Below, piece after piece: positions 2,171-57,830 of a stretch of DNA of 64,000 nt. This DNA comes from an uncultured Lachnospiraceae bacterium (GTDB lineage Bacteria; Bacillota; Clostridia; Lachnospirales; Lachnospiraceae). The stretch is taken from assembly GCA_947650005.1 (NCBI GenBank), contig CANSTU010000007.1, positions 1 to 64,000 on the forward strand, written 5' to 3'. A program made the translations under genes and the position numbers. The notes under the pieces were generated by a model, which was not told the origin of the DNA, made no database searches, and saw only the letters and a program-made list of their open reading frames with translations. The stretch's first letter is position 1. Each line of letters starts with the position of its first letter.

Positions 2171-2471
2171 CAGAGGAACCGCCTTTCAACAGCAGCTGCC
2201 CCAGCCTGCCGGGACTTTGCCCACAGTGAAACGGCCCAGGGAGAGGTGCGGAGGCCGTGCTATGTTTTTGAACGCATTTCACGCCATGGAGACGAGACAT
2301 GCTTCCCTGGAGGGGCGTTGCCCGACAGAAAAGCGGCCATGGCTCATCGAAACGCCCGACGCGACGGCGTTCAAAAACATAGCACGGGCTCCGCGCCTCT
2401 CCCTGGGCCGTTTTACTGCGGGCAAAGTCCCGGCAGACTGGGGCAGCTGCTGTTGAAAGGCGGTTCCTCTG
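2171..2471. repeat. Long palindromic element with conserved core, copy 1
   Basis: Arms 2171-2275 and 2367-2471 (105 bp each) are reverse complements with about 5 differences, 4 of them transitions. The 91-nt loop (2276-2366) carries a core shared with the elements at 33.7 kb and 57.6 kb: GCCATGgAgAcGAGAC, TGCTTCCC, GGAGGGGCG, CCCGAC, GGCTCaTCG. The arms show no similarity to the arms of the other two copies. It lies between the GH2 gene and the proS promoter. No credible protein is encoded; the track ORFs across it are palindrome artefacts. Confidence 0.85.
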
Positions 2472-2518: not shown

Positions 2519-2950
2519 AATCGATGGAATCTGTGCGGACCAGTCGCCGTTTCCATCCATGTCCCGCCTCAGGCCCATTTTTATTTTGCCTGCTGCCCGC
2601 GGGAAAAGGCGTTGAAGGGAAATAGTAGCTATTCCGAATGGCACAGAGAGAAGGCGGCCGGTGCGAGCCTTTGCGGACGGAATAGTAAACCCCTCCCGGA
2701 GCTGTGGGCCGAACCATCCAGCATTTTATGGATGCCAAGTAAGCTTCACCGGGTTCTCCCGTGACAGAGAAAGGTATCGGGCTCTGTCCCCGTACCGTGA
2801 GTGCGGATTATTCCGAATTTAGGTGGTACCACGGACGTATACGTTCGCCCTAAGCTTATCTTTATGTTTCTTAATTGTAGGACTTTCTTCAGAGGAATCC
2901 AAGGAAAGTTTTACACAAAGAGCGGGATAGGTGGAGGGCCTTTTTTATTT
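2519..2950 (+). ncRNA. T-box riboswitch leader of proS
   Basis: The T-box sequence is visible at 2817-2853: TTTAGGTGGTACCACGG, then CGTTCGCCCTAA. TTAGG can pair with CCTAA around the TGGTACC bulge that binds the tRNA acceptor end. GCCCT (2847-2851) can instead pair with AGGGC (about 2935) just before the T run at 2941-2946, giving a terminator. The regulated gene is prolyl-tRNA synthetase, so uncharged tRNA-Pro is the expected ligand. I could not place the specifier codon confidently. The 5' end is set from the promoter at 2484-2512. Confidence 0.8.
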
Positions 2951-3173: not shown

Positions 3174-4928
3174 ATGAAACTGTCAGCATTGACTGGGGAG
3201 CGTTTTCGGGAAACTCCCTCCGATTGTGTCATTGAAAGCCACGCTTTCATGCTCCGGGGAGGGTATATGAAATACGTTGCAAACGGAATCTATTCCGTTC
3301 TGCCTCCCCTGAAACGGATCACGGACAAAATTGAAAGAATCATCCGAGAGGAAATGGATGCCTTAGGCGGACAGGAGGTTTTATTTCCCGTAGCGCTCCC
3401 CGCATCCCTCTGGGAAGAATCCGGCCGTCTGCAGACCGTGGGACGGGAGCTTTTGCGCTTCACTGACCGAGGCGGCGCCGATATGGTTCTGGGGATGACC
3501 CATGAGGAAGCAGCCGTCCATCTGGTACGGGAATATGCCTCCAGCCATTCCCGCTATCCTTTCATGATCTATCAGATACAGACCAAATTCCGGGACGAGG
3601 CCAGGCCCAGGGCCGGCCTGATCCGGGTAAGGGAGTTTATCATGAAAGACGCCTATTCCTTCCATACCTCCCAAGAAGACCTGGATGCCTTCTATCAGCG
3701 CTGCCTGCAGGCCTATGAGCGGATTTTCGCCCGCGCTGGAATTCCTCAGGTAGTTTCTGTCGCCTCGGATTCCGGCATGATGGGCGGCAGCCTTTCCCAC
3801 GAATTCATGCTGCTCACCTCCGCCGGGGAGGACAGCATCGTCCTCTGCCCGCACTGCGGATACCGCGCCAATATGGAAGCCGCGGAATGCATCGTTTCGG
3901 ACACCCCAAATCAGACGATGCAGGAGCTAGCGCCCATACACACACCGGATATCTGTACCATTCAGGATCTGTGCAGCCATTTGGACATACCGCCCAAAAA
4001 CCTATGCAAAGCCGTTGTCTATCAAAGGAACCGGGACGATTCCTACGTGATCGTTTTTCTGCGTGGGGATTTAGAAATCAATGAAACCAAACTCACCAAT
4101 CTCCTCGGGGAAGGGATTCATCCTGCCCTAATTACGGAGGATAGCGGCCTGGAAGCCGGTTTCATCGGCCCCTGCGGCCTCTCCTGCGAGAATCCTTCTT
4201 CTCCGAATGCAAAGCACACCGTGCTCTATGACCGATCCCTGCAGGGATCCTGCGGATTGGCCTGCGGAGCCAATCGGAAAGACTTCCATTTCACCGGGCT
4301 TTGCATGGAAAGGGACTGCCCCGATGTATGCTATCACGACCTGGCAAAGGCCGTTTTGGGAGGGACCTGTCCTGCCTGCCGGAAAATCGGCATCAAGGTT
4401 TCACGAGGAATCGAAGTGGGCAATATTTTTCAACTGGGCGCCAAATATACCCACGCAATGCACATGCAGTACATGGATGAAAACGGCGCCCTCAGGGAAC
4501 CTCTGATGGGCTGCTACGGCATCGGCATCGGACGCCTCGCCGCCTCCGTCTGTGAGGCGTCCCACGACGAATTCGGCCCCATCTGGCCCATCAGCATCGC
4601 CCCCTGGCAGGTTCATTTATGCTGTTTGAGAAGCGACAACGAACACGTACATTCTCAGGCGGACAGCCTGTATAATATGCTGCAAGAACAAGGGCTGGAG
4701 GTTCTCTACGACGACAGGGCCGTCAGCGCCGGCGTCATGTTTTCCGACGCAGATCTTCTGGGCGTACCCATACGGCTCACTGTGAGCCCCCGCAACTATA
4801 AGGAAGGGTGCGTGGAACTCTCCCTGCGTCAGGATAAATCCATTTCTGCCAAAATCCCGATGGACGAAGTCCTTCTCCGTGTTATGGAAACGATAAGCAG
4901 GCTGAAGGAGGAGTGCCGTCCGGCCTGA
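3174..4928 (+). CDS. proS: Prolyl-tRNA synthetase
   Basis: Class II aminoacyl-tRNA synthetase that charges tRNA-Pro; 584 residues, the usual bacterial length. The N-terminal catalytic part has TKFRDEARPRAGLIRVREF (motif 2) and a later GCYGIGIGRLAAS (motif 3, about residue 445). Between them lies the INS/YbaK-like editing insertion (about 225-400), and the last 100 residues match the anticodon-binding fold. It is the only gene of its transcription unit. Expression should depend on the T-box leader at 2519-2950 and on the two leader repeats that supply its ribosome site. An imperfect palindrome follows the stop. Confidence 0.96.
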   Translation: MKLSALTGERFRETPSDCVIESHAFMLRGGYMKYVANGIYSVLPPLKRITDKIERIIREEMDALGGQEVLFPVALPASLWEESGRLQTVGRELLRFTDRGGADMVLGMTHEEAAVHLVREYASSHSRYPFMIYQIQTKFRDEARPRAGLIRVREFIMKDAYSFHTSQEDLDAFYQRCLQAYERIFARAGIPQVVSVASDSGMMGGSLSHEFMLLTSAGEDSIVLCPHCGYRANMEAAECIVSDTPNQTMQELAPIHTPDICTIQDLCSHLDIPPKNLCKAVVYQRNRDDSYVIVFLRGDLEINETKLTNLLGEGIHPALITEDSGLEAGFIGPCGLSCENPSSPNAKHTVLYDRSLQGSCGLACGANRKDFHFTGLCMERDCPDVCYHDLAKAVLGGTCPACRKIGIKVSRGIEVGNIFQLGAKYTHAMHMQYMDENGALREPLMGCYGIGIGRLAASVCEASHDEFGPIWPISIAPWQVHLCCLRSDNEHVHSQADSLYNMLQEQGLEVLYDDRAVSAGVMFSDADLLGVPIRLTVSPRNYKEGCVELSLRQDKSISAKIPMDEVLLRVMETISRLKEECRPA

Positions 4929-4980: not shown

Positions 4981-5137
4981 ACGCATGAACGGTGCAGTCT
5001 GCTCCGCCATCTCTTCCCTGTCTGCTCCTAAACCGCAGGCGAACGCGGTAGCCTCCTTTTTGACCGAATCCTACCGCATTCGCCTGCAATCCGGGAGCAG
5101 ACAGGCAGAGACAGCGGGCACGGCCGAACCATGCGTC
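4981..5137. terminator. Long imperfect palindrome between convergent proS and map
   Basis: The left part (4981-5051: ACGCATG, CTGTCTGCTCC, GCAGGCGAACGCGGTAG) is an imperfect reverse complement of the right part (5071-5137), with a loop of about 19 nt. Its place between two converging genes suggests a bidirectional terminator. There is no clear T run and it lacks the 85-nt core of the other long palindromes. Confidence 0.55.
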
Positions 5138-5190
5138 TGCCATTCCTCTATAGAAACGGATTCCTGTGGTCTCTCACCCCATTGTCTCCA

Positions 5191-5336
5191 TGACCCAATG
5201 CGCCAGAATCTCGCATCCCATTGCCCCCTTGGCTCAATGCGCCAGAATCTCGCACCCCATTTCCCCTTGGCTCAATGCGCCAGAATCTTGCACCCCATTT
5301 CCCCTTGGTTCAGTGCGCCAGAATCTCGCATCCCTC
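5191..5336. repeat. Tandem 38-39 bp repeat copied from the map 3' end
   Basis: Four copies of AATGCGCCAGAATCTCGCA plus CCCCATTTCCCCTTGG start near 5197, 5236, 5274 and 5312. Read on the minus strand, the copy at 5312 is the real end of map (codons for CEILAH and stop). The other three are downstream duplications, each repeating the ILAH codons; two repeat the TGA stop and the outermost reads TGG instead. Confidence 0.85.
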
Positions 5337-6182
5337 TTCAGTCACCAGAATCATGGCCTCCCACTGGGCGGACGGCTTCCCGTCCTCCGTATAGACGGTC
5401 CATCCGTCCTCGTCATCCACATAGATTTCTGCCGTCCCCATATTCACCATAGGCTCAATGGTAAAAATCATCCCAGGAACCATCAACATTTCCGTTCCCT
5501 TCGGCGCCACATAACTGACAAAGGGATCCTCATGGAATTCCAGCCCCACTCCGTGGCCGCCGATCTCCTCCACCACGCTGTAACCGTTTAACTTTGCATG
5601 GCTATTCACCGCATCCGCCATGTCTCCCAAAAAGGCCCAGGGTTTCACCGCGGCGATCCCCTTCTCCATACACTCCCTGGCCACGCGCACCAAGCGCGCA
5701 TCCTCCTCCTTCACGTTCCCTATACAGAACATTCTCGACGAGTCCCCGAAATATCCCCCGTAAATCGTGGACACATCCACATTTACGATATCCCCGTCTT
5801 TCAAAACCACCTTTTCACTCGGAATGCCATGACATACCTGGTTTCCAACGGATGTACATACACTTTTAGGGAATCCGTCATAGCCCAAAGGGGCCGGTAT
5901 TCCCCCCAGTTCCCTCGTTTTCTCGTCTACCATCCTGTCTATCTGCGCCGTAGTCATCCCTTCGCAAATCTGTTGTCCTACATAATCCAGAATAGAGGTA
6001 TTGATCCGGCCGCTTTTACGGATTCCCTCGATCTGCTGCGCGTTCTTTATCATCCCGTATCCCGGCACCATATATCCCTGCAGCTCGTAGTGCCGGATTT
6101 TCTCGTCAAAAGCCGCATGACACTGCTTGTATTTCCTGCCGCTTTTACACCAGCAAGGATCGTTCCTTCCCATTTTTAACAT
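5310..6182 (-). CDS. map: Type I methionine aminopeptidase with N-terminal SEC-C-like zinc motif
   Basis: Removes the initiator Met from new proteins; 290 residues. The N-terminus has a small Cys/His zinc motif (RNDPCWCKSGRKYKQCH, residues 5-21), as in clostridial MAPs that carry a SEC-C-type extension. The peptidase fold follows with the metal ligands in place: Asp in NVDVSTIYGGYFGDSS, His in GGHGVGLEFHEDP, Glu in FTIEPMV and Glu in QWEAMILVTEEG. The start at 6182 follows AGGGGATAGAG. The stop lies inside a tandem repeat that duplicates the last codons downstream. It converges with proS. Confidence 0.93.
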   Translation of the reverse strand: MLKMGRNDPCWCKSGRKYKQCHAAFDEKIRHYELQGYMVPGYGMIKNAQQIEGIRKSGRINTSILDYVGQQICEGMTTAQIDRMVDEKTRELGGIPAPLGYDGFPKSVCTSVGNQVCHGIPSEKVVLKDGDIVNVDVSTIYGGYFGDSSRMFCIGNVKEEDARLVRVARECMEKGIAAVKPWAFLGDMADAVNSHAKLNGYSVVEEIGGHGVGLEFHEDPFVSYVAPKGTEMLMVPGMIFTIEPMVNMGTAEIYVDDEDGWTVYTEDGKPSAQWEAMILVTEEGCEILAH

Positions 6183-32634: not shown

Positions 32635-33714
32635 ATGAGTAAATTGAGAATTGCAATCATGGGCTGCGGAAGGATCTCTGCATCCTACGCTGCCGCTTTT
32701 CGGCAGCTTCAAGAAACCGTCCAGTTAATCTGTGCCGTGGATATCGATATCCTAAAAGCAAAGGCTTTTGCCGAACCCTTCGGCGCGGCTTACGGAACCT
32801 GTTTTGAAGATCTGGAAAAACAGCAGATCGACGTACTTCATCTGTGCCTTCCCCACTATCTCCACGCCCCCATGGCCGTCCGGGCCATGCAGGCAGGGAT
32901 GCATGTGCTCACGGAAAAGCCCGTGGCAATGACTTTGCAGGAGGCGGACCAGATGGCCAAAGCCGCAAAGCAGACTGGAAAAAAACTGGGCGTGATTTTT
33001 CAGACCCGTTATGAGGAAAGCGTGATCACGCTGCGCAGGATGATACAGGAGGGAGCCTTTGGCAGGATTCTAAGCGCCCGTTCTTTTCTCACCTGGAACC
33101 GTCCCTATTCCTATTATGAGGGCAGCGACTGGAAAGGCACCTGGGAACGGGAGGGCGGCGGCGTGCTCATCGATCAGGCTATTCACAGCATCGACCGCGT
33201 CCGCCACATGCTGGGAAGTGAAGTGGAATGGATCGATGGAAGCATCCACAACCACTGCCATGACCGCCTGCTGGTGGAGGATAGTGCGGAAGCGGCCATC
33301 CGCTTCAAAAATGGCTGTATCTACAGCCTCTATGCCTGCAATTCCTATGCAGACGATGTTCCCATCTACCTAGAATTCTTTGGAGAAAAAGGCCGCTGCG
33401 GTCTACGGCAGGATGTGGGATTCTATGAGCTCGATGGAAAAATGCACACCATTCCCGTGACTACGCAGACGCCCGACGGAGCGTCTTCCGCCACGCCCTC
33501 CTATTGGGGCGAGAGCCATCCGAAGCAGCTTCTGGATTTCTATACCAGCGTCCTTTCTGATACGCCCGTTGCTGTGGATGTAGAAGAAGGACGGCGCACC
33601 CTGGAGATCATCAAAGGGATTTATCTTTCCTCCCTGAAAAGGGGACGGATTTATCTGCCCTTTGAAGATGTAAAGTATTGCGGTCTGAATCAAATCCAGA
33701 CACAGACGCCATAA
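32635..33714 (+). CDS. Gfo/Idh/MocA family oxidoreductase
   Basis: NAD(P)-dependent sugar dehydrogenase-type protein of 359 residues. Rossmann start LRIAIMGCGRISASYAAAFRQL, family motif HVLTEKPVAMTLQEAD, and catalytic-region GGGVLIDQAIHSIDRVRHMLG with Asp and His. It is a different member of the family from the one at 27930. It lies 117 nt after the ROK regulator and probably shares its transcript or regulation. The start is fixed by GGGAG of the leader repeat, and translation may be coupled to the leader peptide. The long palindromic element copy 2 follows the stop. Confidence 0.92.
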   Translation: MSKLRIAIMGCGRISASYAAAFRQLQETVQLICAVDIDILKAKAFAEPFGAAYGTCFEDLEKQQIDVLHLCLPHYLHAPMAVRAMQAGMHVLTEKPVAMTLQEADQMAKAAKQTGKKLGVIFQTRYEESVITLRRMIQEGAFGRILSARSFLTWNRPYSYYEGSDWKGTWEREGGGVLIDQAIHSIDRVRHMLGSEVEWIDGSIHNHCHDRLLVEDSAEAAIRFKNGCIYSLYACNSYADDVPIYLEFFGEKGRCGLRQDVGFYELDGKMHTIPVTTQTPDGASSATPSYWGESHPKQLLDFYTSVLSDTPVAVDVEEGRRTLEIIKGIYLSSLKRGRIYLPFEDVKYCGLNQIQTQTP

Positions 33715-33736: not shown

Positions 33737-34054
33737 GCCAAACACAAAAACGGTTCGATAACACTCCCTTTGGGCCCCTCCCAGGATGCGGGTGGAAACG
33801 GTACGCTCCGGCACGATAGAAAGGGGGAGGTCATGGATCTTTTCAGGTGCCTTCATGCCATGAAGAGGAGACCTGCTTCCCAGGAGGGGCGCCCCCGACT
33901 GGGAGGCGTCCTGGGCTCCTCGGAATGTCGGGCGTGAGCGCGACCGAAAAGATCCATGGCTTTCCTCCTTTCTTCCGTACCGGAGCGTACCGTTTCCATC
34001 TGCATCCTGGAAGGGGCCCAAAGGGAGTGTTATCGAACCGTCCTTGCGTTTGGC
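33737..34054. repeat. Long palindromic element with conserved core, copy 2
   Basis: Arms 33737-33846 and 33945-34054 (about 110 bp) are reverse complements with roughly a dozen differences, mostly transitions. The loop (33847-33944, 98 nt) has the same core as copies 1 and 3: GCCATGaAgAgGAGACC, TGCTTCCC, GGAGGGGCG, CCGACtG, GGCTCcTCGG. The arms differ completely from those of copy 1. It sits between the convergent Gfo/Idh and ABC permease genes and leaves only 11-22 bp to either. Confidence 0.85.
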
Positions 34055-57625: not shown

Positions 57626-57830
57626 GCCGGAGAGGCGAATCCCGCGGCAGGAGAGAGGCGGCGACGCCCTATTTTTGAGTGAATTTCGCGCCCTGTAAAT
57701 GAGACCTGTTTTCCTCGAAAGCCGTTTCCCTACAGGGAAGCGTTCAGGGCTCATCGCATTGTCCGGCGCGATGGCGCTCAGAAACAGGGCATGGCCGCTT
57801 CGCTCTTGTCACGGGACTCGCCTCTCCGGC
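57626..57830. repeat. Long palindromic element with conserved core, copy 3
   Basis: Arms 57626-57681 and 57775-57830 (56 bp each) are reverse complements with 11 differences, 9 of them transitions; a more degenerate pairing seems to continue outward. The loop (57682-57774, 93 nt) carries the shared core: GCCCTGtAaAtGAGACC, TGtTTtCC, CCCtACaG, GGCTCaTCG. It lies between the ROK gene and the promoter of the sugar cluster. The more diverged arms suggest an older copy. The rest of the 57432-57912 spacer shows no gene. Confidence 0.78.

Follow-up and report, generated by a model that had tools for sequence, protein, structure and literature searches.

The window analysed here (64,000 nucleotides of contig CANSTU010000007.1, from an uncultured Lachnospiraceae bacterium) contains three copies of a hairpin, and raises the question of whether a stem near the hairpin tip, whose two sides change in step between the copies, marks an RNA fold. 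An earlier note had claimed this for the interval 2282-2366, which covers no more than the tip of a hairpin 301 bp in length. Every copy consists of a long inverted repeat with a conserved ~90-nt core at its tip. Cores were compared by using a gapless alignment of 34 core rows from the source genome (A2, assembled without the pattern used for the family-wide record scan described below), 83 cores from many genera (A5), and 221 distinct cores. The parts of the hairpins are as follows.

2171-2471: copy 1, whole hairpin, 301 bp; fold −255.7 kcal/mol, z = −23.8
2171-2275 (+): copy 1, left arm, 105 nt, 95% complementary to 2367-2471, with 91 nt between the arms
2367-2471 (+): copy 1, right arm, complementary to the left arm
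2265-2380 (+): copy 1, conserved core (116-column alignment A2, covariance model R1); 108.2 bits in the source-genome search with R1
2280-2285 (+): 5' side of helix P2, partner 2358-2363; two A.C mismatches in copy 1
2286-2290 (+): 5' internal loop ATGGA; A, T, G and A in 219-221 of 221 cores, fourth base variable
2291-2296 (+): 5' side of helix P3, the stem of the earlier note, partner 2343-2348; paired at 97.1% (A2) and 99.4% (A5)
2301-2309 (+): 5' side of helix P4, partner 2326-2334; two A.C mismatches in copy 1; supersedes a TCCC/GGGG mini-stem
2310-2325 (+): apex, from alignment A2; a GA/GA internal loop, for which we infer tandem G.A pairing, then a short terminal stem-loop (2312-2315/2320-2323)
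2343-2348 (+): 3' side of helix P3, partner 2291-2296
2349-2357 (+): 3' internal loop, family consensus GGAATGTYY; GGAATG conserved but for the second base (221 cores)
33737-34054 (+): copy 2, whole hairpin, arms 33737-33828/33963-34054 (89%); fold −252.2 kcal/mol, z = −22.1
57626-57830 (+): copy 3, whole hairpin, shorter and further decayed than copies 1 and 2, arms 57626-57679/57777-57830 (81%); fold z = −9.4

Several other features were recorded beside copy 1. A promoter-like sequence (TTGACA-17-TATTCT) lies just beyond it at 2484-2512, and a prolyl-tRNA synthetase-like gene (3174-4928) is preceded by a T-box leader (2603-2855, plus strand; RF00230, 98.5 bits). Downstream of this gene there is a separate inverted repeat (5017-5105, 35-nt arms and a 19-nt loop) with no core match. 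A methionine aminopeptidase-like gene (5310-6182, minus strand) with a SEC-C-like start has four tandem 38-39-nt repeats (...CAATGCGCCAGAATCTCGCACCCCATT...) at its 3' end, at 5178-5342.

The stem was found to be real and to covary. In copy 1, GACGAG (2291-2296) lies opposite CTCATC (2343-2348) with a single C.A mismatch; in copy 2, every base of GAGGAG (33865-33870) is paired with CTCCTC (33916-33921); and in copy 3, AATGAG (57698-57703) forms five pairs with CTCATC plus one A.C mismatch. The three window copies alone are weak support, and depth is supplied by the ~75-80 genomic places that carry the core. In A2, the stem occupies columns 27-32 and 79-84 and takes U-A, C-G and G-C all at one pair, and P3 shows 31 two-sided changes in three pairs in A5. 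For A2 as a whole, 94.8% of pair cells pair and two-sided changes occur at 19 of the 36 pairs. Covariation, as sought in a structured RNA, exceeded both controls: the A2 score was 0.320 versus 0.140 for shuffled data (0 of 500 shuffles reached the observed value), and when the partners were shifted by 1-3 columns, pairing fell from 95% to 38-47%. P2 and P3 were 97.2% Watson-Crick in the 221 distinct cores, versus 75.8% when shuffled. Covariation is confirmed in that the deeper-alignment test was run and all three sets of cores covary. By itself it is no proof of a working RNA, as a DNA hairpin or cruciform fits equally well; the earlier note's step from a covarying stem to an RNA fold is thus not secured, arm-copying in DNA also fitting the data. 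Its TCCC/GGGG mini-stem was a misreading, and family-wide the CCC pairs with a distal GGG to form P4.

In the source genome (3.59 Mb, 138 contigs), ~40 core matches were obtained by blastn and the ~75-80 core places by using R1 (non-overlapping rows, some cut by contig ends). An apparent flipping of the asymmetric internal loop between copies was rejected: it was a blastn orientation artefact arising from the near-palindromic core, and the copies all agreed once a profile was used. Contigs of this assembly often end inside the element (e.g. C10, C29, C33, C53, C87, C118, and C133), and because many do so, the true copy number and neighbouring gene order are probably under-reported. Relatives were found in 11 of the 299 genomes sampled from the bacterial family (source included), covering a handful of other genera, with 8-23 copies in several of the relative-bearing genomes. 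Records were also scanned using a zero-chance sequence pattern, which gave at least 119 matches in records titled Roseburia, Hungatella, Coprococcus comes, Blautia, Hespellia, Lachnotalea, and unnamed Lachnospiraceae. A few of these matches carry other titles, including one Alistipes record that was taken as a mis-binned MAG. An order-wide search returned the core only from Lachnospiraceae. The single match elsewhere in the phylum, in genome G1016 at 9.5e-6, was a terminator-like hairpin and not a relative, and no member was found in the phages, plasmids, and viral contigs searched. As sampled, the repeat family was shown to be limited to Lachnospiraceae. Rfam 15 had no family at gathering score for the window hairpins or 13 relative loci (a sub-threshold MIR918 match reflects hairpin shape only), and no description of such a Lachnospiraceae family was found in the open-access literature searched. 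It appears to be a previously undescribed and unlisted repeat family.

Within the core, unpaired ATGnA, GAC, and GnAATG are near-invariant in the 221 cores, although cores picked by the record-scan pattern have many loop bases fixed by that pattern, so that part of this invariance is sample choice. In A2, which was found without the pattern, most of the same loop bases stand at 90% or above. P2 varies freely, one of its pairs taking each of the four Watson-Crick types. Because the unpaired loop bases are nearly invariant over the 221 cores, the folded tip seems to be under selection.

The arms gave a different kind of signal. In the source genome, they are 80-165 bp long, with a within-copy identity of 95-97% for most of the 90 nt nearest the core and near-random identity between copies; the core is 82% alike. 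The 14 longest-matching pairs, which have copies in common and are not independent, contained 387 in-step arm substitutions (213 transitions and 174 transversions) versus 152 one-arm changes, as well as 288 in-step indel columns, some of which are arm-length differences. Isolated mismatches were counted in 230 elements as G.T 106 and A.C 118 in the arms and G.T 21 and A.C 17 in the core. The strand asymmetry expected of wobble pairing is absent in the arms and in most core mismatches; in P2 and P3, the two best-aligned core helices, G.T exceeds A.C by 23 to 10 (221 cores, sequences not independent), a weak pointer to RNA. A tRNA wobble control gave G.T 4 and A.C 0 from 7 tRNAs only, which is too small. 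In-step transversions and indels, the lack of a G.U bias, and random orientation to genes agree with gene conversion or template switching in DNA. Switching of template from one inverted-repeat arm to the other yields compensatory patterns at the DNA level (PMC8794818, PMC8604942). Hairpins are reported to arise and persist through such a process while acquiring multi-base compensatory changes (PMC8794818), and the arms of inverted repeats are reported to become homogenised by it (PMC8604942). For most of the matched changes, arm-to-arm copying in DNA is the apparent source. Strong arm copying is specific to the source genome, since arms in the other genomes examined are just 73-86% alike. De novo formation of arms from flanking target DNA was rejected as the main source, the arms of the longest-matching copies being homologous (~72-83%). 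Loss of SbcCD was likewise rejected as the reason that long palindromes are tolerated; SbcD is present in the source genome.

Evidence of precise insertion was obtained from one relative genome, G211, in which 16 core copies have identical ends (TAGGYAATTGCGAAAC...GTTTCGCAATTRCCTA), unrelated flanks, and duplicated targets. Many elements carry TAGGYAATTGCGAAAC at both ends as terminal inverted repeats (TIRs), and the ends were found 171 times, bounding forms of 286, 331-335, 131, and 55-62 bp. Target duplications of at least 8 bp, mostly 9-13 bp, flank 17 of 20 elements versus 0.5% of random pairs. The 131- and 55-62-bp TIR-bounded deletion forms lack the core and also carry target duplications; insertion in G211 therefore does not require the core in cis. 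Outer ends are not clearly common to the source-genome copies and the target duplication signal there is not above background (mean score 4.87 versus 4.45 for mismatched flanks), so mobility in that genome rests on dispersal and on the relatives. The elements are short (~200-400 bp), non-coding, multi-copy, dispersed, and intergenic in the window, which together with the TIRs and target duplications of G211 are features of a MITE. Copy 2 occupies most of the gap between converging genes (stops at 33714 and 34066). Its left-hand gene is 86% conserved in a genome of the same genus (G002), where the element is absent from the 3' flank; the right-hand gene differs there, and the locus therefore cannot be counted as a clean empty site.

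Two related end motifs recur in other genera, and the element end sequences for finding transposases by their ends are GGTAATTGCGAAAC and GATTCGGGTGTCAAAAGCCC. In several genera, hairpins occur as inverted pairs, always (−)...(+) and 240-740 nt apart. Record CAJTGF (loci L208, L218, L222, and L271) holds two-hairpin composites with a common right end (...CCGGTTTATCCGGGTTAGG) and left end (TTAGACCCTTAAG...), the middle of which looks non-coding and is itself partly inverted-repeat. In a search of PF01609 genes in G211, no transposase with matching ends was found: none of the five genes, which are of the IS4 type, had the ends. The segment C3:181569-184613 of G211 was rejected as an autonomous element, being two separate copies around pantothenate genes. 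In G211, AGGAG or GGAGG (Shine-Dalgarno) lies just outside one end of 13 of 20 elements versus 10% at random (L193-L203, L142-L156). A strict 5'-leader regulator was rejected for this genome, the Shine-Dalgarno sequence being on either side of the elements and the orientation not fixed.

The rival reading closest to the earlier note is that read-through from neighbouring genes yields the core as a structured RNA (e.g. a processing, stability, or binding element), and that selection on RNA pairing made the covariation. Variable helices around fixed, purine-rich internal-loop bases would suit such an RNA, as would the G.T excess in P2 and P3. Many copies are probably transcribed, judging from the Shine-Dalgarno adjacency in G211 and from short gene distances in the source genome, where gene ends face the element at medians of 15 and 37 nt. 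However, G.T equals A.C in the arms and in core mismatches elsewhere, orientation to flanking genes is random (++ 12, −− 16, −+ 16, and +− 10), transversions and indels change in step, and the arms differ between copies, so that no common promoter is evident. We regard this reading as possible but rather unlikely.

Other readings fared less well. Long hairpins close to the ends of genes commonly serve as terminators, and each arm has one 7-bp terminator-like match, as would be expected if the hairpin were a chance or ordinary terminator-like inverted repeat and the three copies unrelated. This is already refuted by the copy number and the gapless alignment, to which the core similarity among the window copies (E = 1.7e-15 and 1.3e-10) and the fold z-scores (about −24, −22, and −9) can be added. 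Similarly, a folded tip with conserved unpaired bases, and inverted pairs in several genera that recall BIMEs, could point to a REP/RAYT-type repeat, a short palindrome mobilised by a Y1 tyrosine transposase through recognition of folded single-stranded DNA. The element is 150-400 bp long and in G211 has TIRs and 9-13-bp target duplications, which RAYT-moved REPs are not known to make. Such an origin is improbable.

The preferred reading, to which we give a probability of roughly 0.7, is that the stem belongs to the tip of a MITE-like mobile foldback element spread through Lachnospiraceae, classed as non-autonomous on account of the exact common ends and target duplications in G211. It builds on the dispersal of the copies, the precise ends and target duplications in that one relative, and the structure and covariation of the core. 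A predicted transposase would act in trans at the outer ends and move the element. In the source genome, template switching or gene conversion would copy one arm onto the other in DNA, keeping the arms alike and generating most of the covariation seen there. The unpaired core bases would be held by selection because something recognises the folded tip, whether this is read-through RNA or DNA in an extruded or single-stranded form. A speculative extension, which we hold to be doubtful, is that the structured tip is a passenger of several foldback transposons with differing ends throughout Lachnospiraceae, its loops being read in the folded state by a dedicated factor and its arms re-copied, so that each copy has a near-perfect private 100-bp stem.

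This appears to be a mobile repeat family that is abundant in common gut bacteria, with Coprococcus, Roseburia, Blautia, and Hungatella records among them. Given that many contigs here end inside the element, it is probably a cause of breaks in many short-read assemblies. The family also offers a clear natural example of how DNA arm-copying can give rise to strong, shuffle-proof covariation, and calls for caution in covariation-based RNA discovery. The invariant loops still call for explanation.

Known hairpin-type bacterial MITEs include ERIC/IRU, RUP, Correia/NEMIS, and the Yersinia palindromic sequence (reviewed in PMC2229807). Like these, the present family is short, non-coding, multi-copy, and intergenic, forms one long stem-loop, and has TIRs and target duplications (in G211). 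Unlike these, its arms are almost wholly different between copies of one genome and near-perfect within each copy, a single structured core persists over many genera with differing ends, and inverted pairs are frequent. With REP/BIME sequences and their RAYTs (PMC2817692) it shares palindromic intergenic repeats and, in some genomes, inverted pairing, but it is much longer and has the TIRs and 9-13-bp target duplications of G211. Conserved loops and covarying helices are shared with the structured RNA families of Rfam 15, although none matches at gathering score. In-step multi-base changes of inverted-repeat arms are shared with hairpins maintained by template switching (PMC8794818, PMC8604942); those studies cover RNA genes and short coding inverted repeats, whereas the hairpins described here are a dispersed mobile family with arms of 80-165 bp.
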